This document shows, in pieces, positions 44,933-55,278 of a DNA stretch of 64,000 nt (position 1 is its first letter; every line of letters starts with the position of its first letter). Origin of the DNA: Actinopolymorpha singaporensis (GTDB lineage Bacteria; Actinomycetota; Actinomycetes; Propionibacteriales; Actinopolymorphaceae); the NCBI RefSeq assembly GCF_900104745.1, contig NZ_LT629732.1, positions 682,001-746,000 on the forward strand. The letters are read 5' to 3'. The notes beneath the pieces were generated by a model. That model saw only the letters and a program-made list of their open reading frames with translations, was not told the DNA's origin and ran no database searches. Position numbers and translations under genes: made by a program.

Positions 44933-45484
44933 GTGTCCGGTACGCGCATGCTCATCGTCGGTGGGGCAGCCGTCGCGGTTGCTGTCCTGGTCTCCGCCTG
45001 CGGCCCACCAGTGACCGGAACCATAGGTGTCGGGGTCGATGCCGCTCGAAGGCCCGTCGCCTATCTGCGCGTGTGTTCCGGCGACCACCTGGACCTGGCC
45101 TTCTTGGACGCCGAGCCACTCAGAGACAGCACCCCCAGCGCCGCCGCATGGGACGCGCGGCCTGCGGCCACCGGCTCGACGTCGTGGTCGTTCGACCGGC
45201 CCGATCACGGCTGGGTCGCCAAAGGGTCCGCGCCGCAGCTGGAACCAGGTGTCATCTACCACCTCGCAGCGGGAGCCAAGGACGGCTCAGGGACAAGCAG
45301 TTACGTCCTCTTCACCACCGAAGACCTGCAAGCGATGAAGCCGGGACAGGTGCGCATCTACGACACCACCCGTGAGGTACCAGCGGCCGAACCCACCGGC
45401 ACCCTTGAACAACAAGCCCGCGACGAGAACGACAACTTCATGCGCGTCGTAAGCCAGCACCAATTCGAGCAAGCCTGCTGCTGA
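44933..45484 (+). CDS. Predicted lipoprotein, unknown function
   Basis: The N-terminus MLIVGGAAVAVAVLVSACGP (from ATG 44948) carries a lipobox (LVSAC), so it is predicted to be lipid-anchored on the outside. GTG 44933 adds five residues. The remaining 150 residues are not recognised; the C-terminus is acidic and glutamine/asparagine-rich. Upstream at about 44850 is a short hairpin-like palindrome (CGGACGC-CGG-GCGTCCG). Confidence 0.65.
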   Translation: MSGTRMLIVGGAAVAVAVLVSACGPPVTGTIGVGVDAARRPVAYLRVCSGDHLDLAFLDAEPLRDSTPSAAAWDARPAATGSTSWSFDRPDHGWVAKGSAPQLEPGVIYHLAAGAKDGSGTSSYVLFTTEDLQAMKPGQVRIYDTTREVPAAEPTGTLEQQARDENDNFMRVVSQHQFEQACC

Positions 45485-45758: not shown

Positions 45759-46385
45759 GTGACGTTGGAGCAGAGTGCCGTGCGGAGGAGTGGACCACGC
45801 AAGCGCGCGACTGGGATCGTGCGCGGCATTGTCCTGGTCGTGATTGCCGTCATCGCGGTGTGGCTTGTGTACTCGTCGCTGTACTCGCCACTGTCCACGG
45901 GGACCTTCTCGGCTCCGGAGACTCGCTCGGTCAAAGCGTTGACCGATGGCGTGGCACCGACCCGCTACATCGTGGACGCATCAACTGGGCAGCACGGCCG
46001 GATCGCCTACGACCTGGCGAACGACGGCAGGTTCCCCGTTCGTGTCGATGGGCTGGCGTCCGACCACGCCTACGGCATCACGGCTGTGGGCTGGGTGCCG
46101 GATCAAGGCAACGGTGAGCTGATGGGCGGCTATGCAAGCGATGTGCGGGCGTTCCCCGTCACGATCAAGCCAGGCGAGTGGGTCGTGGTGTGGGTGACGG
46201 TGACCAAACCTCCCTGTCAGGCAGGGCAGATCACCACTGTCGAGGAGATTCCCCTGAGGTGGTCAGCGCTCGGACGGCACCACGTCTACAGGCTCCCGCT
46301 CAGCGACACGGCCGGGGGCATACGCGAGATAGCGCTCTGCCACCCTCCCGAGGCGCTCAAGCACCTCGAGTTCCCCGAGAGCTAG
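45759..46385 (+). CDS. Single-pass membrane protein with extracytoplasmic domain, unknown function
   Basis: GTG 45759 follows GGGAGCC. After a basic N-terminus a single helix (IVRGIVLVVIAVIAVWLVYS) anchors a ~160-residue outer domain with two cysteines. The domain shows beta-rich segments (RIAYDLANDGRFPVRVDGLA, VVVWVTVTKPPCQAGQI) but no family is recognised. The gap to the lipoprotein upstream (274 bp) shows no gene. Confidence 0.6.
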   Translation: MTLEQSAVRRSGPRKRATGIVRGIVLVVIAVIAVWLVYSSLYSPLSTGTFSAPETRSVKALTDGVAPTRYIVDASTGQHGRIAYDLANDGRFPVRVDGLASDHAYGITAVGWVPDQGNGELMGGYASDVRAFPVTIKPGEWVVVWVTVTKPPCQAGQITTVEEIPLRWSALGRHHVYRLPLSDTAGGIREIALCHPPEALKHLEFPES

Positions 46386-46579
46386 ATCACCCGACATCGG
46401 GGCTGTACGCCAGCGATGTACAGCAACGTCGACGACCAGAGCCAACCCGTCCCGACCCAAGACGGCGTGGCCCACAGGTGGAGGCTGCGAGCCAGTCGGC
46501 GTCTGGTGGGGTGACGATGACCTCGCCAACGTCATCCGAGGGTTGGGCTCGTCGGCTTTGGTCAGGGGCCTTCCGAAAA

Positions 46580-46624
46580 GTGCGCGCTCGGAGGGATTCG
46601 AACCCCCAACCTTCTGATCCGTAG
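46580..46624 (-). repeat. attL: 45-bp copy of the tRNA-Arg 3' part
   Basis: These 45 bases are identical to 55203-55247, which is the 3' portion of the intact tRNA-Arg gene (anticodon loop edge through acceptor stem). On this side the tRNA 5' part is absent. Exact terminal duplication of a tRNA 3' end is the usual mark of tyrosine-integrase insertion. Confidence 0.9.
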
Positions 46625-46750
46625 GACTCGACAGACCATGATCGGGACCATCTGGATGCGGGCCGACCTGGGTGTTTGCAGATCTGCCCGCATGATCGTC
46701 TGACGTTGGTTGACGGCTTGTGTGCGGCCAGAATGCGGCCACTTTCGCGC

Positions 46751-47047
46751 TCACTCGGGAGCATCAGGCGGGAGGACGTCGAAGCCGCCGTGGCGCCACA
46801 GCCATACGTGGGCGAACCGGTCGAGCCATGGTGTCCAGAACCAGATCCGCGCCCATCGCGGCACTCGCTCGAGGTGCGGTTCGACGCCATCGGGTGGCAT
46901 CCAGTTCCAGCCGGGTCGTACTCCTGCTGGCGGTGTCCACCTACCTGGTGATGGGCGAGCGTAGGTCATCCAGCGGACACGCTGCTTGTCGTGCTCGCTC
47001 CAGTCGTCACCAGCATCGTCGCTCGGGCTCACTGCAGTTCGGGTCAC
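46751..47047 (-). CDS. Small protein of unknown function, Trp/Pro-rich
   Basis: GTG 47047 overlaps the stop of the small membrane-protein gene upstream (GTGA), so translation is coupled. The 98-residue product has RWTPPAGVRPGWNWMPPDGV and FWTPWLDRFAHVWLWRHGGF blocks. It resembles small actinobacterial conserved hypotheticals. It lies inside the integrative element near its left end. Confidence 0.5.
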   Translation of the reverse strand: MTRTAVSPSDDAGDDWSEHDKQRVRWMTYARPSPGRWTPPAGVRPGWNWMPPDGVEPHLERVPRWARIWFWTPWLDRFAHVWLWRHGGFDVLPPDAPE

Positions 47048-47310
47048 CAGGGCGCGGGTGTAACCAGCTCGACCAGCAGGAAGACCAGGAAGAACACGGC
47101 CGCGACGCCGTACAGGAGGTGGAACACTTCGCGCTTGTATCCGCGCTTCTTGGCGACGATGCCAGAGATCAGCGCGACGAGGGCGAAGGCGAGTGGACCG
47201 AACGGCGCCAGCAGTATGGAGATCCCAAGCAGCAAGACCGCGGCCAGGAGGATCATTCCGATCCCAAGGATCCGCACGTTGCCGTTCGTGTTGCTGCCTG
47301 GTTCGGACAT
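47044..47310 (-). CDS. Small integral membrane protein, unknown function
   Basis: ATG 47310 follows GAGAGGCG. The 88-residue protein has two or three helices (VRILGIGMILLAAVLLLGIS, LAFALVALISGIVAKKRG, LLYGVAAVFFLVFLLVELV). It is coupled by a 4-bp overlap to the downstream small gene. No family was recognised. Confidence 0.6.
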   Translation of the reverse strand: MSEPGSNTNGNVRILGIGMILLAAVLLLGISILLAPFGPLAFALVALISGIVAKKRGYKREVFHLLYGVAAVFFLVFLLVELVTPAPW

Positions 47311-47867
47311 CCGACGCCTCTCCCGTGCCATCGCCATGGTGACGGGCAGAGCATGGCAGGTCGACAAAGGTCGCGCAGCAGATCGGAGACCTGGAAGCCC
47401 ACCGAACCGGTCCCCGTACTTCGGCTGGGGTGACCTGCCTGAGCATTACGGGCGCCAGTGGGATGGCGACGACGGTGACCTTCCGGTATCGCAGCAGCCG
47501 ACGCAGTCCCTCGCCGAGCTACCGCCGATCCTCCCGTGGTGGGGCAACCCGAACACAGAGATTAGCTACGACTCGCTTCCGCGAAGCATGACGTCCTTGT
47601 GCAGGTTCAGCGGTACCACTGTGCGAGCCAGCCCACAACAACAGCTGATGAGCCACACCGGTCGTGACCGTACGCAGGGCCGACTCGCTAACGCCTTCAT
47701 TGCTGCGATGGCTCTGATGTATCAAGGCGCCGCTGACGCGGCGCGACCGCCCGGCCGCCCTGCGGGCGGCGCTGGGGCGCAGTGGCCGAAGGCATCCGGG
47801 CGCCCCTCCGGACATACGTGGAGGCGCGGGCTGCGCCTCGACGGCTTGTCCAGCACGCCTGGGGAGG
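47311..47867. other. Non-coding stretch with one copy of an inverted short repeat
   Basis: A 557-bp gap without a convincing gene. Repeat copy A at 47722-47780 (TCAAGGCGCCGCTGACGCGG and onwards) is matched on the opposite strand at 51341-51396. The rest shows no family-like frame. Confidence 0.55.
47722..47780 (+). repeat. Short GC-rich repeat, copy A
   Basis: It begins TCAAGGCGCCGCTGACGCGG and runs through CCGCCCGGCCG and GCGGGCGGCGCTGG. The copy at 51341-51396 is its reverse complement with a few differences. Both lie in gene-free parts of the element and each contains internal hairpins, suggesting a short non-autonomous or structural repeat. Confidence 0.75.
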
Positions 47868-48608
47868 TCATTTGCTGGTGAGCTTGAACAGGGCCATGCC
47901 GGTCAGGCCGATGGGGAACCAGATCGGCGTGAGGCTAGGGCCCTTCCGTTCGAGAAACCTGATCGCGTCAGGGACCATGATCTCGGCCACGGCGGTGATC
48001 AGGAAGCCCCCACTGGCCGCGGTCAGTGTCAAGATGACGGTCTCGGACTGGTTATTCAGCACCAGGTAGCCGACCAGTACGCCCACCAGGATGATCGCGA
48101 AGAAGGCCGCGATCAGTAATCGACGCCGGTTGGTGGGCATCCCCTGTGCCTTGGCGGTTGCGATGGCGACGAAGGCCAGTGGTGCCTGGGCGATAGCCAT
48201 TCCGGTCGCCAGGAGTAGTCCGGTGCCCAGGTCAAGGGCTGCCCCGATGCCGATGACGACGGCATCTATGAGGAAGTCACCAACGACACCCACGAACAGG
48301 CCGGCCGAGCCGGTAGACGACTCTCCCTTCCCACGTCTGGCGGTGTGCCATGCCGAGGCGTAGTCGAAGACCACGAACAGGGCGCTTCCAACAAAGAACG
48401 CGAGCACGACTCGACCCAGCACCAGGCCCCTCACCGCCGGCGGTAGCAGGTCAACGAAAACGATGGCGACCAGGACGCCCGCGGCGAGCTGCAGTGCACC
48501 GCTCACAACGCGGTTGGACAGCGTAAGCAGCTCGCCTAGGACAGCACCCACCCCGGTGATTGCTGCCGCTAACCCAGCGATCCCGAGAACCTGCAACACA
48601 CTGCCCAC
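47868..48608 (-). CDS. ZIP-like metal transporter
   Basis: The 246-residue protein has about eight helices. The metal-site region of helix IV reads GVVGDFLIDAVVIGIGAALD where ZIP carriers usually have HNxxDG; the first histidine is absent but an aspartate and the D-A/I spacing remain, so metal choice is uncertain. The C-terminal half repeats the pattern (FLITAVAEIMVPDAIRFLER). GTG 48608 is the start. It is cargo of the element. Confidence 0.65.
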   Translation of the reverse strand: MGSVLQVLGIAGLAAAITGVGAVLGELLTLSNRVVSGALQLAAGVLVAIVFVDLLPPAVRGLVLGRVVLAFFVGSALFVVFDYASAWHTARRGKGESSTGSAGLFVGVVGDFLIDAVVIGIGAALDLGTGLLLATGMAIAQAPLAFVAIATAKAQGMPTNRRRLLIAAFFAIILVGVLVGYLVLNNQSETVILTLTAASGGFLITAVAEIMVPDAIRFLERKGPSLTPIWFPIGLTGMALFKLTSK

Positions 48609-49461
48609 AGGGCGTGACTACCCGGACAAGAGGCAACCAGAACGTGACACCGTTCCCTTCGCCACGCCAGATCGAACAAGGTCGTTGTGCCCGTGCCTCA
48701 AGGTGGGCCACAGGACCCGTAGACATACATTCCCAAGCTTGGCCGGTGAGCACCCCGGAGCCTAGGGCACACCGAAGAGTCACCAGAGTCGAACGGTCCC
48801 GCTTCCACCGTCGCTGTGCGAGGAGCTCGCCGTCGTCCTGGAGGGCCGTGACCGGGATGCCCTCGTCTCCACCTCCCAGGGGTGGTCCGCTGTGGTTGAC
48901 GAACTTCCGGCGTTCGGTGTGGCACCCGACCGTCGCCGCGCGGGCTGACGATCCACGGCATGCGGCACAGGGCGGCGTCGCTCTACATCTCGGCCGGCAC
49001 TCCGCCCAAGGTCGTCCATAATCCTCGGCCATGCTTCGATCACGATGGATCTGTACGGCCACCTGTACGCCGACGAGATGGACACGTGGGCGGCGCGGCT
49101 CGACGACACGGCCCGGCAGTTCGACGTGTGGCCAGAACGTGGCCAAACGGCGTTTCCGAGGTGGTTGAGTCCAAGATCGTCCACTTCACGCGGGGCCACA
49201 GATCCACCGCCGACCGTTTCGTCGGCTGGTGTCCGTGATCATCCAGCGGTCCTGTTAGCAACTGTGTTAGCAACGAGCGACGCATTACGAGTGGGTTCTC
49301 GTGTGCAGGTCACCCGTCAGTTGGTGCATCGCTAACCGTCGGGTGCTGCTTGTTGATGTGGGTTGTTGAGGGCTGCTGACGGCCGTTCGGGGCACCTCAG
49401 GGGCATCGCCGTCACGCGACGGCCTCGGCCTCCTGTCCCATGGATGGCCCGAGTCCGTGCA
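48609..49461. other. Non-coding stretch holding the integrase remnant
   Basis: Apart from the integrase fragment (48790-49155), this 853-bp gap shows no gene. Sequence between 49160 and 49461 has no recognisable feature. Confidence 0.5.
48790..49155 (+). pseudogene. Remnant of a second tyrosine integrase (C-terminal part)
   Basis: Pieces of an integrase catalytic domain appear in shifting frames: RTVPLPPSLCEELAVVLEGR (48790), GMRHRAASLYISAGTPPKVV (48957) and ILGHASITMDLYGHLYADEM (after a frameshift near 49018), the last carrying the catalytic tyrosine. At least two frameshifts and a lost N-terminus make it non-functional. It indicates that another element has been in this site. Confidence 0.7.
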
Positions 49462-50016
49462 TCACGGGCGGCCTAGGCTCGGGCGTGGATCTGCTGATGA
49501 CCGCGTGCCCTGGTCAGCTCGGACTGCCCGCTGCATCTCGACGGACGGCCACTTCTCTCCGTCAACAACGGCAGTGCGGCCGGGCTTCTGTGTTGCCTTG
49601 AAGCCCAGGCTCTCGTACAGGGCGCGTGCGGCCGCGTTGCGCTGGTAAACGCCGAGGCGGATCAAGCGCACGTGAGGCCGCGCCGACACCTCTTCAATGA
49701 GGGCCTGCATGATCGATCGTCCGAAGCCTTCGCCCCGGCGGGCTGGATCTACTAGTACTCTGCCGATACGTGCGCACTCTTGCGAGGTGATGAGGATCGA
49801 TCCGGTCGCCACCGGCTGATCTTCGGTGTCTAGAAGCACACGCACGTCGCGCCCTGGCTCCTGCGTCATCGCGAGAAAAGCGTCAGCGCTCACTGGCCAC
49901 GGAAAGCTCGCACCCGCGAACAGGGTCGCATCCATGCGCGATCGCACCCAGCGCGCGAGCACGCGTGCGAAGTCACCATTGAGCGCGACGAGGTTCGCCG
50001 AAGACACGCCCGACAT
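49462..50016 (-). CDS. GNAT-family N-acetyltransferase
   Basis: ATG 50016 (MSGVSS) starts a 184-residue protein with GNAT features: GRVLVDPARRGEGFGRSIMQ as the acetyl-CoA loop (RRGEGFG) and LIRLGVYQRNAAARALYESL near the end. An upstream in-frame start would add an arginine-rich leader without family resemblance. Substrate unknown; element cargo. Confidence 0.8.
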   Translation of the reverse strand: MSGVSSANLVALNGDFARVLARWVRSRMDATLFAGASFPWPVSADAFLAMTQEPGRDVRVLLDTEDQPVATGSILITSQECARIGRVLVDPARRGEGFGRSIMQALIEEVSARPHVRLIRLGVYQRNAAARALYESLGFKATQKPGRTAVVDGEKWPSVEMQRAVRADQGTRSSADPRPSLGRP

Positions 50017-50403
50017 CACATCATGGTGGAGATGCAGCGGTCGCGGGAGGGTACAGGACCGCCGCCGCGCCACTCGGAGCGCTCCCCTTCCCTCCCGAGA
50101 CTCCCACAGAGGCTAAGCGCCAAGATCCTGGTGACCTCTCTATCCGTAGAGGCAGGCAGTCCGATCGCGACCTGCCCTTCCGCGCTTGGGCGGTCGTCGA
50201 CCTGGTGCTCATCGTCGTCCTGCATTGCAGGTCGTTGGGGTCACGCTGGGGTCAGTGAGGTGATCGCCCGGATGAATATCTGGTGGACGTCACTGGCTGC
50301 GTGATCGTACGGTCGTCCGACTCGAGGGTTCCGACGTTCGAAGGGGTGACCCTGGTGGTCCGCGCAGCCGCGGTCGATGTTCACATGACCGCTCACCGTC
50401 ACC
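50017..50403. other. Divergent gap without recognised features
   Basis: A 387-bp gap between divergent GNAT and methyltransferase genes. No family-like frame was seen. It should hold both promoters, but no clear -35/-10 pair or operator stood out. Confidence 0.45.
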
Positions 50404-51189
50404 ATGACCTCTTCGACCGAAGGATACGACCCAGAAATGGACGACCCCGCACTTCGTAGCTTCACCATCAGTGAAAGCACTCACCGCATCAACAACCCGC
50501 TAACCAGCGAGAAGTTGGCAACGCTGGGCCGCGCACTCGATCTGCGACCCGGCTCGCGCATACTCGACCTCGCCTGCGGCTCAGGCGAAATGCTGTGCAC
50601 CTGGGCCCACGACCATGCCATCACCGGGATCGGGATGGACATCAGCACATTCTTCATCGGCAAAGCCAGCGCACGCGCAGATGAGCTGGGCGTTTCGGCC
50701 AAGACCGAGTTCGTGCATGGCGACGCCTCCGGATACGTCGCCGACACGGCTGTCGATATCGCGGCATGCATCGGCGCGAGCTGGGTCGGCAACGGCGTCG
50801 CGGGCACTGTCGACCCACTTCGGCGCAGCACCATACCCGGCGGCATGATGCTGATCGGCGAACCGTTCTGGCGCCAGGACCCTCCAGACCAGGCCAGCGT
50901 CGAGGGCTGTTACGTCACGAGCAAGGACGTGTTCCTTCCGCTGCCGGAGTTGCTCGAGCACGTCGGCGAACTGGATTGTGATGTCGTGGAGATGGTCCTT
51001 GCCGACCAGGACGGTTGGGATCGCTACGCAGCAGCTCAGTGGCTCAACATTCGCCGCTGGCTGGACGCGAACCCCAACGACGAGCTGGCCGGCGAGATGC
51101 GGTCATCGCTCGCCACTTCGCCTGCCCGCCACGCCAGGTACGTGCGGGAGTACCTCGGATTCGGCATCTTCGCCGTGATGAACCGCTAG
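50404..51189 (+). CDS. SAM-dependent methyltransferase
   Basis: Motif I is ILDLACGSGEMLCTWAHDHA and motif II GIGMDISTFFIGKASARADE, with FVHGDASGYV following, so the SAM site is intact. The 261-residue length is typical. ATG 50404 lacks a clear ribosome site; ATG 50437 is an alternative with AAGGA upstream. No substrate can be named. Confidence 0.85.
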   Translation: MTSSTEGYDPEMDDPALRSFTISESTHRINNPLTSEKLATLGRALDLRPGSRILDLACGSGEMLCTWAHDHAITGIGMDISTFFIGKASARADELGVSAKTEFVHGDASGYVADTAVDIAACIGASWVGNGVAGTVDPLRRSTIPGGMMLIGEPFWRQDPPDQASVEGCYVTSKDVFLPLPELLEHVGELDCDVVEMVLADQDGWDRYAAAQWLNIRRWLDANPNDELAGEMRSSLATSPARHARYVREYLGFGIFAVMNR

Positions 51190-51676
51190 CGGCCGCCGGC
51201 CACCTTTCGCGGAGCGACGCCGCAGGCGCACTTGACGCGCGAAGAGGAGGCCGGAGACTGGCGTGCGAGGACGGCGGGGCGGTCAGAATCCTTGCCAGCT
51301 CGGGCACCGGCATCCTCCGCCCGGTGAGCCCGAGGACGGCGCGCCAGCGCCGCCCGCAAGACGGCCGGGCGGCTGCGCCGCGTCAGCGGCGCCTTGACTC
51401 GTAAGAGCCGGAATCGTCAAAGTAGAGATTCGCTCGTTGTCCTCCGTCGGGTGAGGCGCGACACCCGGGGCGCTAGGGGCTGTGCGACACCGGCGTGCAG
51501 AAGCGACGCGTGCGCATGCACGATCTCGGCGCGGCACGCATCAACAAGGACGCCTCGGATCGACCCGCCCGTCCCGCGTATGTACGACGACGGGTGTCGG
51601 CCGTGACGGACTTGAGCCAGCTCACGCGCCCAGATTCGGGGGTCACGATGTCCCGTGTAGGTGCGAAGACGACGAC
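51190..51676. other. Non-coding stretch with copy B of the inverted repeat
   Basis: A 487-bp convergent gap. It contains repeat copy B at 51341-51396 and nothing else recognisable. Confidence 0.5.
51341..51396 (-). repeat. Short GC-rich repeat, copy B (inverted)
   Basis: On the minus strand this reads TCAAGGCGCCGCTGACGCGG then GCAGCCGCCCGGCCG and GCGGGCGGCGCTGG, matching copy A at 47722-47780 with few differences. The two copies flank about 3.6 kb holding the transporter, integrase remnant, GNAT and methyltransferase. Confidence 0.75.
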
Positions 51677-52714
51677 CTACCAGATGAGTCCTTCTAGATG
51701 GTTGTGGCCGGAGAGCAGGCGAGTGATGCGGTCCTGCGCCGCTTCGCGTTCGTCAGGCTGGGGGTGGCGTGCGTATAGCACGAGCTCCCCGTACATGTCA
51801 TAGAAGTTCAACCGCTCGCGCAGATGCTCGCGCTCGAACAGCTCCGGATATGCGCCGTGCAGCCATCCGGGAACCTCTGTGAGTATGGTCTCGTCGAGCC
51901 CCTGTTCATCGGGTGTGGGTGGGAACTCTCGCGCCCTCGCACACCAGCGCAGGATGGTATCGAGCTCGACATCCGCCGGCTGAGCCAACGCCTCGGCGAA
52001 GTCGATGAGACCGGTGACACGTCCACGGTCGACGATCACATTAGATCCATGCAAATCGCCGTGGACAAGGACGGGTTCGTCGGCGGCGAACAACACCAAC
52101 CGCTCCTGGACCCAATCGGCCACGTCCGCGACCAGGCGCGAGTCATGACCGGGCAGTCGCCGGGCAGCCTCGACCTGCTCGAGCGCCGCACCCACCACGG
52201 GTGGGTGGAACGCAGCCCACGACTTGCCGGCGAGCGCGGCGGCCAGCCAGGGCGGCAGCAAGCCTGCCGGGACAGGAACCCGGTGGAGGGCGCGCAACGC
52301 AGCACCAAGGCTCTCGATGATTGCTTGGCGCGTGTGCGAGTCCGCCGTCGGCCATGCCTCGTACAGGGTTTGGCCGGGCAGGCGTTCGGAGATGTACCAC
52401 GGCCCGTCCGGGCCGTCGCCGTGGGCGATGTGCCGGGCGTGTGGGACCTCGCTGCCGGCGAGCAGGTCGACGACTGCAGCCTCGTGGCGATACGCGTCGC
52501 GGTGCCGTTCGTCGGTATTCAGTCGTACGACGTATTCGTCGCCGATCCACGCGCGGCTAACCCAGCCAGCCTTTCGAATAAAGCGCCCGGTTGCCGGCAG
52601 ACCAGCGGCCGCCAAGATCCTCAGCAACGCCGGATCGGTAGCCGGCTCGTCGACGACCGGTGTTGATTGGTCACACACGTACCAAGTCTCACACCACACC
52701 AGGGTGATCTGCAC
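51677..52714 (-). CDS. Aminoglycoside phosphotransferase-family kinase
   Basis: Catalytic loop VLVHGDLHGSNVIV and the metal region LIDFAEALAQPADVELD (D-F-A-E) are intact; RFIRKAGWVSRAWIGDEYVV forms the N-lobe. GTG 52714 gives 345 residues; GTG 52678 is a possible later start. It is element cargo next to the control region. Whether it modifies a drug or a cell metabolite is unknown. Confidence 0.8.
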   Translation of the reverse strand: MQITLVWCETWYVCDQSTPVVDEPATDPALLRILAAAGLPATGRFIRKAGWVSRAWIGDEYVVRLNTDERHRDAYRHEAAVVDLLAGSEVPHARHIAHGDGPDGPWYISERLPGQTLYEAWPTADSHTRQAIIESLGAALRALHRVPVPAGLLPPWLAAALAGKSWAAFHPPVVGAALEQVEAARRLPGHDSRLVADVADWVQERLVLFAADEPVLVHGDLHGSNVIVDRGRVTGLIDFAEALAQPADVELDTILRWCARAREFPPTPDEQGLDETILTEVPGWLHGAYPELFEREHLRERLNFYDMYGELVLYARHPQPDEREAAQDRITRLLSGHNHLEGLIW

Positions 52715-52752
52715 ACAGGATTAATCACCGGTTCCGTGTGCTCGGTGCACCG

Positions 52753-53187
52753 CTAGTTTGTGACGCGTTCGCCGTCGTGACTGCGGATGGCTGGCCGGGG
52801 CTCTTCTGTAGGAAGGGCGTCGAGGAGGCGGATGGCGTAGGCCTCGCTCATGCGGTCGCGGATCTGATCTGGTGTGAGCCAGGCGACGCGGTCGGTCTCG
52901 ACGCTGGTCTGCTCGGTTCCGCCGGCGAGGTGGCAGCGGAAGACGAGGGCGACGATTCCGCGGTTCATGTTCTTGTAGACGCCGGTGAGTGCGTCGGGTT
53001 CGACGCGGAGGCCGGTCTCCTCTTTGACCTCTCTGCGGAGGCCGTCGTGGATGGATTCCTCGAGCTCGAGGACGCCGCCGGGTGGTTCCCAGTGGCCGTT
53101 GTCGCGGCGTCGGATGGCCAGGACCCGTCCTTGTGGGTCGAGGACGGCTGCGGCGACGCTGACGGAGTGGAGCGGGGCTGGGGACAT
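52753..53187 (-). CDS. Nudix hydrolase (Pif-like) of the element's control region
   Basis: ATG 53187 follows GAGGAGCTCCC. The Nudix box is GGVLELEESIHDGLRREV with KEETGL, complete. Position beside a KorSA-type GntR gene and a Pra-like segment is as in pSAM2, whose pif gene encodes a Nudix-motif immunity factor. The identity as Pif is inferred from context. Confidence 0.75.
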   Translation of the reverse strand: MSPAPLHSVSVAAAVLDPQGRVLAIRRRDNGHWEPPGGVLELEESIHDGLRREVKEETGLRVEPDALTGVYKNMNRGIVALVFRCHLAGGTEQTSVETDRVAWLTPDQIRDRMSEAYAIRLLDALPTEEPRPAIRSHDGERVTN

Positions 53188-53253
53188 GGGAGCTCCTCGG
53201 GACTCCAGTGACCCAGAGTGTACGAAGTCAGGTAGAGGAGTACAGGAGGCGGC

Positions 53254-54022
53254 ATGGTCACGGGCGGCGTGGACACGGCCAGTGACCGGCCTGTCTACAA
53301 GCAGATCGCCGACTTGCTCCGGTCCTCGATCGAGCGAGGCGATCTCGGTCCCGGTGAGCGGTTGCCGAGTGAGACCGAGTTGATGAAGCGGTACGGCGTG
53401 GCGCAGGGGACTGTGCGCCAGGCTGTGGGCCTGCTGCGGAGTGAGGGTGTGGTGATCGCCGAACACGGTCGTGGCGTGTTCGTCCGTGCGCGTCCTCGGT
53501 TGCGTCGCTTGGCGCATGACCGGTTCGCTCGTCGGCACCGAGGCGGGTCACTCTGCCTACGACGCTGAGGCGGAGAAGGTGACGCCCTTCGTCGACTCGA
53601 TCCGTGTCTACCCCGACAAGGCCCCGGCTGACATCGCGCAGCGCCTGGGCCTGCGCAAGGGTGCCGAGGTGCTCGTTCGTAGCCGGCGGTACCTCAGCGA
53701 CGGCCAGCCCACGGAGACGGCGACCTCCTACATTCCGTGGGAACTGGCCAAGGGCACGCCGATGGTGGAGACCAACCCAGGCCCGGGCGGTATCTACGCC
53801 CGGATCGAGGAAGGCGGCCACCAGCTCGGCCGGTTCACAGAGGACGTTACGGCGAGGATGCCGACGCCGGACGAGGTGAAGGTCCTTCGCCTTGCACCTG
53901 GCTCGCCGGTGATCGGCCTGGTTCGCACGGCCTACGACGTCGACGACCAGGCGGTGGAGGTCTGCGACACGGTGATGTCGGCCGACCTGTACGTCCTCAG
54001 CTACGAACTTCCCGCCTCCTGA
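53254..54022 (+). pseudogene. GntR-family regulator (KorSA-like), frameshifted
   Basis: Frame one (from ATG 53254) gives the winged helix: PVYKQIADLLRSSIERGDLG, LPSETELMKRYGVAQGTVRQ and up to LRRLAHDRFARRHR. Frame two then continues a UTRA domain: SAYDAEAEKVTPFVDSIRVY through VIGLVRTAYDVDDQAVEV. The switch occurs near 53530-53550, so a +1-type frameshift breaks the gene unless bypassed. In pSAM2 relatives the KorSA repressor controls pra and so replication and excision. The GTGTAC...GAGTAC pair upstream (about 53219-53244) is a candidate operator. Confidence 0.75.
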
Positions 54023-54071
54023 CGCCCCGGCGCCAGGGTTTCCTTACCGCCGACTGGAGACACGGATTCCG

Positions 54072-54482
54072 GTGGCGAACGAGCACGCGTTCCCGCATGG
54101 GGTGTACGCGTTCACCTCTACGGAGGTGAAGCCCGCCAGGGACTTTGAGAAGTCCACGCGGGACAGCCCGGTGCAGATGATCGACCGGGACACCGATCTT
54201 CCGGTGTGGACGTTCGACGTGCTGGATGCGGATCCGAACGCGGAGGGCAAGAACGCCGCGATCACGGTGCGGATCCTGTCGAAGTATCAGCCGACGTTGC
54301 CGGAGGCGCCGGCTGGGTCGCCGTTCCGGCCGGTGGAGTTCGAGTGCCTGACCGGTACCCCGTACGTGGACTCCCAGCGGTGCACCGGCAACGGCCCGGG
54401 CCCGCACCGCTGCAGGTCGAGGCTGGCGTGGTCGTGGCGGGCGAGCGCGATCGTTGCGCCCCAGCCGACGAGTGCGGCGCGT
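54072..54482 (+). pseudogene. Pra-like element activator segment, fused to integrase
   Basis: GTG 54072 begins VANEHAFPHGVYAFTSTEVK, then VPVWTFDVLDADPN-like and FRPVEFECLTGTPYVDSQRC, recognisable as the replication/integration/excision activator (Pra) family of pSAM2-type elements. The frame does not stop where Pra normally does but runs straight into integrase sequence, so the gene junction and whatever lay between pra and int have been deleted. Confidence 0.65.
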
Positions 54483-55022
54483 GGCCCGATTGTCCGTAAG
54501 GCCCTCACGGATGCGGTGCGCGTCGACGAGGTTCTTGCGTCCAACCCGGCGGAGCGGGCCAAGCGGCCACGCAGGACCCGGCCCCCGGTTGGGTCGGTGT
54601 GGTCGGCCGAGGAGTTGCGGATCTTCCTTCGAGCGACGTCTGCGCATCGCCTGTCGGCGTTCTTTCATCTGGCCGCGTACACCGGTGCTCGTCGCGGCGA
54701 GTTGCTCAACCTGCGGTGGTCAGACGTCGACCTCGACGGGTCGGAGATCAGGATCCGGGGATCCGCGGCGGTCATCGCGGGTGAGCGTGTCGAGGGAACG
54801 ACGAAGGGTGGGCGCGCGAGCGCCTCGTGAGCATCGACGCTCGGACAGTCCGCGTCCTCCGAGAGGACCGATCGAGGCAGGCACAGGAGCAGCTTGTGGC
54901 TGGCGCGGCGTGGTCGAGCGACGGCCACGTGTTCACGACAGGGCTGGGGTCACCGGTGTACCCCGACACCGTGTCCCAGCTCATGCCGAAATTGATCAGT
55001 GCGCACAACAAGTCGGCGGGCA
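54483..55022 (+). pseudogene. Site-specific tyrosine integrase, broken
   Basis: The first part, in frame with the Pra segment, reads RKALTDAVRVDEVLASNPAE, then AAYTGARRGELLNLRWSDVD with the first catalytic arginine, to EGTTKGGRA. A frameshift near 54825 leads to SIDARTVRVLRE and HVFTTGLGSPVYPDTVSQLM. After SAHNKSAG (about 55022) homology stops, so the HxxR and tyrosine motifs are missing. The N-terminal domain is also lost. The enzyme cannot function. Confidence 0.8.
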
Positions 55023-55146
55023 TCCAGCCTCCGCTGCCGCGGACCAGGCGCTCGACGAGGCCGATCCGCTGCCCCTCGCGACGACCTCGTGTTGGCAGAA
55101 GCGTTAGCAAACCGGCCGCCAGATGGGAACGGTTGTCAAATGACGA

Positions 55147-55183
55147 AGGCCCCTGCTCAGGCGTTGTGCCTGGTCAGGGGCCT
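55147..55183. terminator. Hairpin terminator downstream of tRNA-Arg
   Basis: AGGCCCCTG and CAGGGGCCT are perfect 9-bp arms with further AGGC/GCCT pairing inside. It lies just beyond the tRNA 3' end (leftward), between the integrase remnant and the tRNA. Its half sequence GGTCAGGGGCCT also sits beside attL at about 46560. Confidence 0.75.
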
Positions 55184-55202
55184 CTTGTCTAGGTGCCACC
55201 AT

Positions 55203-55247
55203 GTGCGCGCTCGGAGGGATTCGAACCCCCAACCTTCTGATCCGTAG
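55203..55247 (-). repeat. attR: 45-bp tRNA-Arg 3' part shared with attL
   Basis: Identical to 46580-46624. It lies inside the complete tRNA gene, so the tRNA was restored at this end on integration. Confidence 0.9.
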
Positions 55248-55278
55248 TCAGATGCTCTATCCGTTGAGCTACGAGCGC
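55206..55278 (-). tRNA. tRNA-Arg (anticodon ACG)
   Basis: The minus strand folds as a cloverleaf: acceptor GCGCTCG with CGAGCGC, D-arm GCTC/GAGC, anticodon stem TCTGA/TCAGA with loop CTACGGA (anticodon ACG, read as ICG), and T-arm GGGGG-TTCGAAT-CCCTC with one G-T pair. The discriminator is G and CCA is not encoded. It is the attachment site of the element to its left. Confidence 0.95.

Follow-up and report, generated by a model that had tools for sequence, protein, structure and literature searches.

The tRNA-Arg(ACG) locus

The window analysed here comprises 64,000 nt of Actinopolymorpha singaporensis (NZ_LT629732.1, 682,001–746,000), and all positions are given in window coordinates. An initial annotation had read positions 46580–55247 as a single degraded actinomycete integrative and conjugative element (AICE) with cargo, inserted in a tRNA-Arg gene and bounded by identical 45-bp repeats 8.6 kb apart. 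The direct repeat is exact (46580–46624 and 55203–55247, spacing 8623), and the 6,403,569-base genome has two copies of the 45-mer, with no occurrence of the pattern read backwards. As had been claimed, the right copy forms the 3′ portion of tRNA-Arg(ACG), which lies on the minus strand at 55205–55278 (ARAGORN; Rfam tRNA model, 70.5 bits, 40–60 kb part scanned). This copy is termed the proximal attachment (att) site, and att and tRNA together occupy 55203–55278; the left copy, on the + strand, is the distal att. Because tRNA-Arg(ACG) is the only tRNA gene found in the window by ARAGORN, the repeat does not belong to a tRNA-Arg array, an alternative raised at the outset. The arrangement is that of an AICE integrated at a tRNA 3′ end between direct repeats. 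Short blastn with the 3′ end of the tRNA as query gave no third att between the outer copies. A plasmid collection returned nine records, each with ~1% of the query covered and, by position, corresponding to the tRNA/att stretch. The GC content is 64–68% inside the interval, compared with 71–74% to the right of the tRNA.

A pSAM2-type gene block beside the tRNA

For comparison within the genus, six Actinopolymorpha genomes were used, namely A. singaporensis (G000) and five others (G001–G005), of which G003 is A. pittospori DSM 45354. The Nudix, GntR, Pra-like, and integrase sequences reported at the tRNA-proximal end are all found there. An intact Nudix hydrolase gene, Pif-like by position (52753–53187, minus strand; PF00293, E = 1.3e-18), keeps what we take to be the Nudix box, read by eye. 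Next to it are a gene for a KorSA-like GntR/UTRA repressor (53254–54022, + strand), which is frameshifted at ~53540, is read in two frames, and matches PHROG 10724 in two pieces, and a Pra-like gene (54054–54487, + strand) whose C-terminus is fused to an integrase.

The nearest homologue is an AICE of A. pittospori (8099722–8107100), with the gene order Nudix, KorSA (258 aa), Pra (158 aa), Tra (525 aa), Rep (571 aa), Xis (73 aa), and Int (394 aa). By Pfam, Tra matches FtsK_SpoIIIE (E = 4.2e-8), Rep matches RepSA of pSAM2 (E = 2.8e-93), Int matches Phage_integrase (E = 2.7e-16), and KorSA matches GntR plus UTRA; the small HTH_17 protein was labelled Xis. No Pfam family match was obtained for Pra from either A. 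pittospori or the window, and the name is taken from position and from the lead of the initial annotation. This pSAM2-type element and the window have in common a Nudix(−)/KorSA(+)/Pra(+) block and a tyrosine integrase, with protein identities of ~84–97% across the block, after which homology breaks. The two KorSA frames correspond to residues 1–96 (97%) and 97–258 (88%) of A. pittospori KorSA, and the Pra-like product is 84–90% identical to its A. pittospori counterpart. Judged by these sequence matches, the Nudix/GntR/Pra/integrase block is AICE-derived.

Unlike the A. pittospori element, the window is without Tra, Rep, and Xis, and its integrase is dead; the two integrases also differ from one another, with ~30–37% identity. 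With AICE proteins as queries, tblastn matches in the window at E ≤ 1e-3 were confined to Nudix, KorSA, and Pra. No match was seen with TraB, Rep, or Xis of A. pittospori, nor any Tra, Rep, or Xis with the RepSA fragment of G002 and 22 forward open reading frames of the AICE in G226; strongly diverged remnants might escape tblastn. The loss of Rep, Xis, and Tra, noted from the start, is thus upheld within that limit.

DNA homology to pra stops at 54487 and homology to an integrase, referred to as integrase B, begins at 54489, and a single deletion therefore fused pra to mid-integrase. What is left of integrase B is a middle part (54489–55048, + strand, two frames; ~residues 165–357 of 418), which shows 68–70% and 45–56% identity to full-length relatives, and, after a second deletion, the end of the reading frame (55077–55139, + strand; 90% over 21 residues to an integrase tail of G002). 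The N-terminal part is absent, and so are three blocks that a 418-residue relative has at residues 359 (HDLRH), 383 (LGHADPS), and 395 (YAH). The GntR frameshift, the Pra/Int fusion, the loss of the integrase catalytic end, and the second integrase tail described below are all additions to the initial annotation.

Among 37 loci of integrase B relatives examined with ARAGORN, 10 have tRNA-Arg(ACG), 17 have tRNA-Thr, 2 have another tRNA only, and 8 have none; the integrase reading frame ends ≤100 bp from the tRNA in 14 of the 27 tRNA-Arg or tRNA-Thr loci. In Thermomonospora, Actinomadura, and Streptomonospora (L103–L105), the integrase ends 69–77 bp before tRNA-Arg, with a terminator-like hairpin between. 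From these positions, tRNA-Arg(ACG) is therefore considered a usual target of the integrase B family. These three loci resemble the window in their tRNA-Arg(ACG) target, in the 68–70% match of the middle part, and in the terminator-like hairpin before att, and differ from it in having a full-length rather than a truncated integrase.

A second integrase tail and two families of putative arm sites

The second integrase tail (integrase A; 48891–49174, + strand) lies in the interior of the interval. Its frame is broken, giving two frames, and its DNA matches G002, G004, and G005; over residues 20–92 of 96 it is 85–91% identical to the integrase tail that lies next to the tRNA in G002. The homologue of this stretch directly adjoins the tRNA in G002 and G004, and in G005 it adjoins a 27-bp att fragment.

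Each integrase is accompanied by its own repeated motif, named an arm site by analogy and regarded as putative. The motif of the IntA tails, GTGGCCA-N4-GTGGCCA, is identical in G002, G004, and G005 and forms the putative right arm site of a segment A in the window (49128–49145, + strand). The putative left arm site of this segment (GYGGCCA-N4-GYGGCCA; 46724–46741, + strand) has 3 mismatches to the IntA-side copy and lies 100 bp inside the distal att, which is accordingly assigned to A as its left att. Allowing up to 4 mismatches, the A motif is found in the window at 49128 (0), 46724 (3), 47193 (4), and, on the minus strand, 29735 (4). A stricter pattern, for a motif chosen after sight, matches only at 46724 and 49128, as against 0.075 matches per Markov-resampled 64 kb. 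Candidate left A arms are also present in G004 at 704643 and in G005 at 139628.

The second motif, GTTAGCA-N5-GTTAGCA, provides a putative left arm site (49254–49272, + strand, exact) and a putative right arm site (55091–55109, + strand, 1 mismatch) for a segment B, and at up to 3 mismatches these two are its sole occurrences in the window. Of 22 loci of integrase B relatives, 17 have it after the integrase gene. A distal repeat of ≥43 bp was detected in six of these relatives, and in five of the six (L106, L112, L117, L120, and L130) a second copy of the motif lies 98–109 bp inside that repeat. The motif is rare elsewhere, with 2 matches in 1.85 million strand-bases of other loci, one of them (L184) at an integrase end adjoining tRNA-like sequence.

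In the window, the left A arm lies 100 bp inside the 46580 copy of the repeat, compared with 2.63 kb for the left B arm. Because of the positions of both families of arm sites, the interval is divided into A (~46580–49174) and B (~49175–55247). At the junction between them (49175–49253, + strand), the expected att is gone, with no att match between the outer copies. The right A arm and the left B arm are 126 bp apart, compared with ~228–239 bp expected from G004 and the B relatives; by arithmetic, ~100–115 bp, including the whole att, was therefore deleted between A and B.

To the right of the left B arm, 49273–49440 has 73–83% matches in loci of G001, G002, G004, and G009, the last from another genus of the family. 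The 12-mer GCATTACGAGTG near the start of this stretch also occurs in the tRNA-Thr(CGT) of L117.

Interpretation of the interval

The interval very probably consists of two stacked AICE relics, A and B, with the att between them deleted. Element A would have inserted first and element B afterwards at the tRNA, between the tRNA and A, each insertion rebuilding the tRNA and pushing the older att outward, as established AICE biology suggests. B would have lost the stretch from the end of pra to mid-integrase (Tra, Rep, Xis, and the Int N-terminus), along with the repressor frame and the catalytic end of the integrase; A would have lost almost its entire core, and a small deletion would have taken out the att between A and B. 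What is left today would be cargo (GNAT, methyltransferase, and APH-family kinase genes) and the intact Nudix gene. Given the missing parts, neither relic should be able to excise by its own enzyme, and an incoming AICE of matching specificity might mobilize the block in cis via the outer repeats and arm sites.

Of the original reading, AICE ancestry, insertion at tRNA-Arg, and decay are retained; the single element bounded by two repeats gives way to two stacked elements in light of the second integrase tail and the two arm-site families. That one AICE fills 46580–55247, with the inner integrase tail as acquired cargo, is improbable: just two exact att copies survive and the middle att is not seen, as such an element would have it, but the B arm lies far deeper inside the distal repeat than the ~0.1 kb expected, the A arm is at the right distance, and the integrase of the inner tail sits at the same tRNA in G002 and G004. 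The interval might also be ordinary chromosome shuffled by recombination, with the distal tRNA fragment as a segmental duplication, since relatives carry the genes of the region at other places and in different orders and dispersed repeats lie within the interval. Such an origin is highly improbable, however, given the AICE genes on the tRNA-proximal side and the arm sites close to either end of each segment, and is largely refuted by the homologous AICE and the tRNA-Arg target of the integrase family.

Several points weigh against two stacked relics. The middle att is supposed rather than seen, and the order of A then B depends on the accretion model. The arm motifs were spotted by eye and then tested; 5 of the 22 B relative loci have no arm match at all, and in L126, one of the six distal-repeat loci, the left B arm was not found. 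The candidate left A arm of G005 (4 mismatches) has no adjoining att, and no att was found near that of G004. For the A. pittospori element, nothing convincing as a direct repeat marking its ends was found within 12.3 kb. Finally, GC content stays at 64–70% all along from 46.5 to 40 kb; the left boundary is therefore not sharp, and GC gives no outer limit for the foreign DNA on that side.

The stretch 46559–46579 (+ strand), which abuts the distal att on its left, resembles the right half of an integrase-terminator sequence, and 46559–46624, flank included, aligns to the terminator–att junctions of G005 (91%) and G003 (89%). From this alignment we infer that these 21 bp may be a relic of a still older element, and an insertion older than both A and B, left of the distal att, is possible. 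The gene at 45759–46385, left of the distal att, is inverted with respect to the tRNA in G002, G004, and G005, and a second copy (90%) is present elsewhere in G004. Outside the element, 44933–45484 holds a gene that is lipoprotein-like by eye, with no family match; its 91% homologue in G002 adjoins a full-length Nudix copy (5118973–5120028), which hints at older AICE remains left of att.

In PMC3218068, an AICE is described as int, rep, and tra between att sites, and a remnant as having two or fewer of the components. The window contains no complete site-specific integrase (B is truncated, A is a frame-broken tail) and, at E ≤ 1e-3, neither an FtsK/SpoIIIE-type Tra nor a Rep initiator; Nudix, frameshifted KorSA, fused Pra, and truncated Int are present and core functions are missing, as in a remnant. 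A defective AICE (DAICE), as the term is used in PMC9513070, keeps traB with other modules missing; because there is no traB match, the window is classed as a remnant rather than a DAICE. An accretion array comprises at least two elements at one shared tRNA att; the window also has this makeup, as seen from its pair of integrase tails and the ordered positions of its two arm-site families, with the middle att itself absent.

AICE accretion and decay at tRNA-Arg is already in print (PMC3218068, PMC9513070). AICEs and defective AICEs, including a traB-less trace, are described as accreting at a Streptomyces tRNA-Arg (PMC9513070); that array is like the window in combining several elements with different integrases, direct repeats, and a traB-less trace at one tRNA-Arg, whereas the two elements of the window are both dead and have lost their intervening att. 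Sav3708 and Sav3728 in a tRNA-Arg of S. avermitilis are likewise tandem AICEs with integrases of different sub-families, but are counted as AICEs (PMC3218068) rather than remnants. Serial insertion at one tRNA is an ordinary event, here legible in unusual detail, and the arm sites of integrase families offer a ruler for dividing a decayed tRNA-site array after loss of the middle att.

The same tRNA site in related genomes

A clean empty tRNA-Arg site, the comparison proposed in the initial annotation, was sought among the other five genus genomes and none was found; integrase tails, additional att copies, or both occur at the tRNA-Arg in every one of them. IntA tails lie at the tRNA in G002 and G004, an IntB-like tail in G003, and an IntA tail with an att fragment in G005, while G001 has two further partial att copies, without an AICE protein match. 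The order in G002 is opposite to that of the window: A adjoins the tRNA, with a RepSA fragment beside the A tail, and the IntB tail lies beyond, at a distance of 8 kb, with a 15-bp fragment of att. In another genus of the same family (G018), the tRNA is present with no AICE protein match in the 16 kb searched. The same gene order without the duplicate was not encountered as such; G005 shares two stretches of segment A, without att at their left end.

A further relic is found at the same tRNA in G009 (L199, C1:1833761–1839357), between att copies 5.5 kb apart. It contains a full-length Nudix gene and KorSA matched to residue 139, followed by the C-terminal half of an integrase. This is an independent, parallel degraded AICE, whose internal deletion is different from that in the window.

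Retention of the Nudix gene

The Pif protein of pSAM2 is described as a Nudix protein that acts in the recipient (PMC3218068). The Nudix domain and the position beside korSA agree with the window Nudix being a possible Pif immunity factor, meaning a Nudix protein that keeps the same element from entering. Copies of Nudix, KorSA, and Pra were counted over the six whole genus genomes with all first-look candidates scored, this being the fairer comparison because Nudix neighbours had been inspected at loci found by Nudix. Full-length Nudix at ≥85% identity is represented by seven copies in five of the six genomes, one of them within the A. pittospori AICE; there are in addition one full-length copy at 65% and four fragments at 73–91%. 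KorSA at ≥80% is represented by two copies, intact in G003 and frameshifted in the window; by score the next match is at 34%, and HTH-part-only matches reach 50%. For Pra there are one intact copy, the fused window copy, and two fragments.

Order-wide (245 genomes), at least 11 Nudix copies were found at E ≤ 1e-35 in at least 8 genomes. Among the matches listed, KorSA (E ≤ 1e-35) is close to Nudix in G003, G226, and G007 and is broken in G000 and G009, with no KorSA near the other six. In G007 KorSA and Nudix share a strand and are 0.9 kb apart, and 20 kb of sequence gave no further AICE match. The orphan Nudix genes of G004 (6.53 Mb) and G002 (1.00 Mb) were considered as one vertically inherited locus, which was rejected because their 20-kb surroundings mismatch beyond the gene.

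Pairwise ratios of non-synonymous to synonymous substitution (dN/dS) are 0.06–0.23 for the five close Nudix copies outside the intact AICE. Singleton changes (synonymous/non-synonymous; five tests, p uncorrected) number 8/4 in the window (p = 0.006), 7/2 (p = 0.003) and 6/3 (p = 0.02) in the two G004 copies, 13/2 in G001 (p = 5e-6), and 8/11 in G002 (p = 0.14), where the non-synonymous count is inflated by an altered start; both G002 Nudix copies are without the same start codon. The pattern is thus purifying in four of the five copies tested, and one of the five is without significant constraint.

One tentative and rather doubtful explanation, compatible with two stacked relics, is that the relic has been kept because its Nudix protein still blocks related AICEs, as a domesticated Pif-like immunity. 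The excess of full-length Nudix copies (seven) over intact KorSA and Pra (one each), the purifying pattern, and the parallel G009 relic with its full-length Nudix at the same tRNA would fit, but there are also four Nudix fragments, the start codon missing from both G002 copies, and the copy without significant constraint; Nudix genes, moreover, are common and could be ordinary cellular genes. Selection may also predate decay, and because the branches may include time inside live elements, relic immunity is treated only as a hypothesis. We regard it as rather doubtful that dead AICEs leave a working, selected Pif-like Nudix, which would make tRNA-Arg relics an inherited immunity, or "vaccination scars"; no description of this was found among titles and abstract openings of the literature searched. 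The locus does allow a concrete test of whether Pif-like Nudix genes persist longer than the elements by which they were carried, a question related to the mechanism and range of conjugal immunity, given as open in PMC3218068.

Other genes and repeats in the interval

Segment A also contains an open reading frame for a small membrane protein (47044–47367, minus strand), with no family over its cut-off, and one for a ZIP-like membrane protein (47868–48608, minus strand), with a weak PF02535 match (E = 3e-4) below cut-off. The cargo of B comprises a GNAT acetyltransferase (49462–50073, minus strand; PF00583, E = 5.6e-14), an S-adenosylmethionine-dependent methyltransferase (50404–51189, + strand; PF13649, E = 1.3e-8), and an APH-family phosphotransferase (51677–52714, minus strand; PF01636, E = 7e-27). 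The last of these matched NCBIfam resistance models, but far below their cut-offs. As in the window, a phosphotransferase-like gene lies beside Nudix in the A. pittospori AICE (8098214–8099239); by eye, the two sequences differ.

Two dispersed repeats occur within the interval. Opposite-orientation copies of the first, of ~80–112 bp, lie at 47710–47783 and 51316–51427; it has at least 65 matches across all six genus genomes, and one copy (77%) lies in A. pittospori, ~80 bp away from the Nudix gene of its AICE. The second, of ~130 bp, lies at 50130–50262 and has at least 55 matches in five of the six genomes, with none in G002 among the matches listed; one copy is near the A. pittospori AICE, and one is beside the att fragment of G005.

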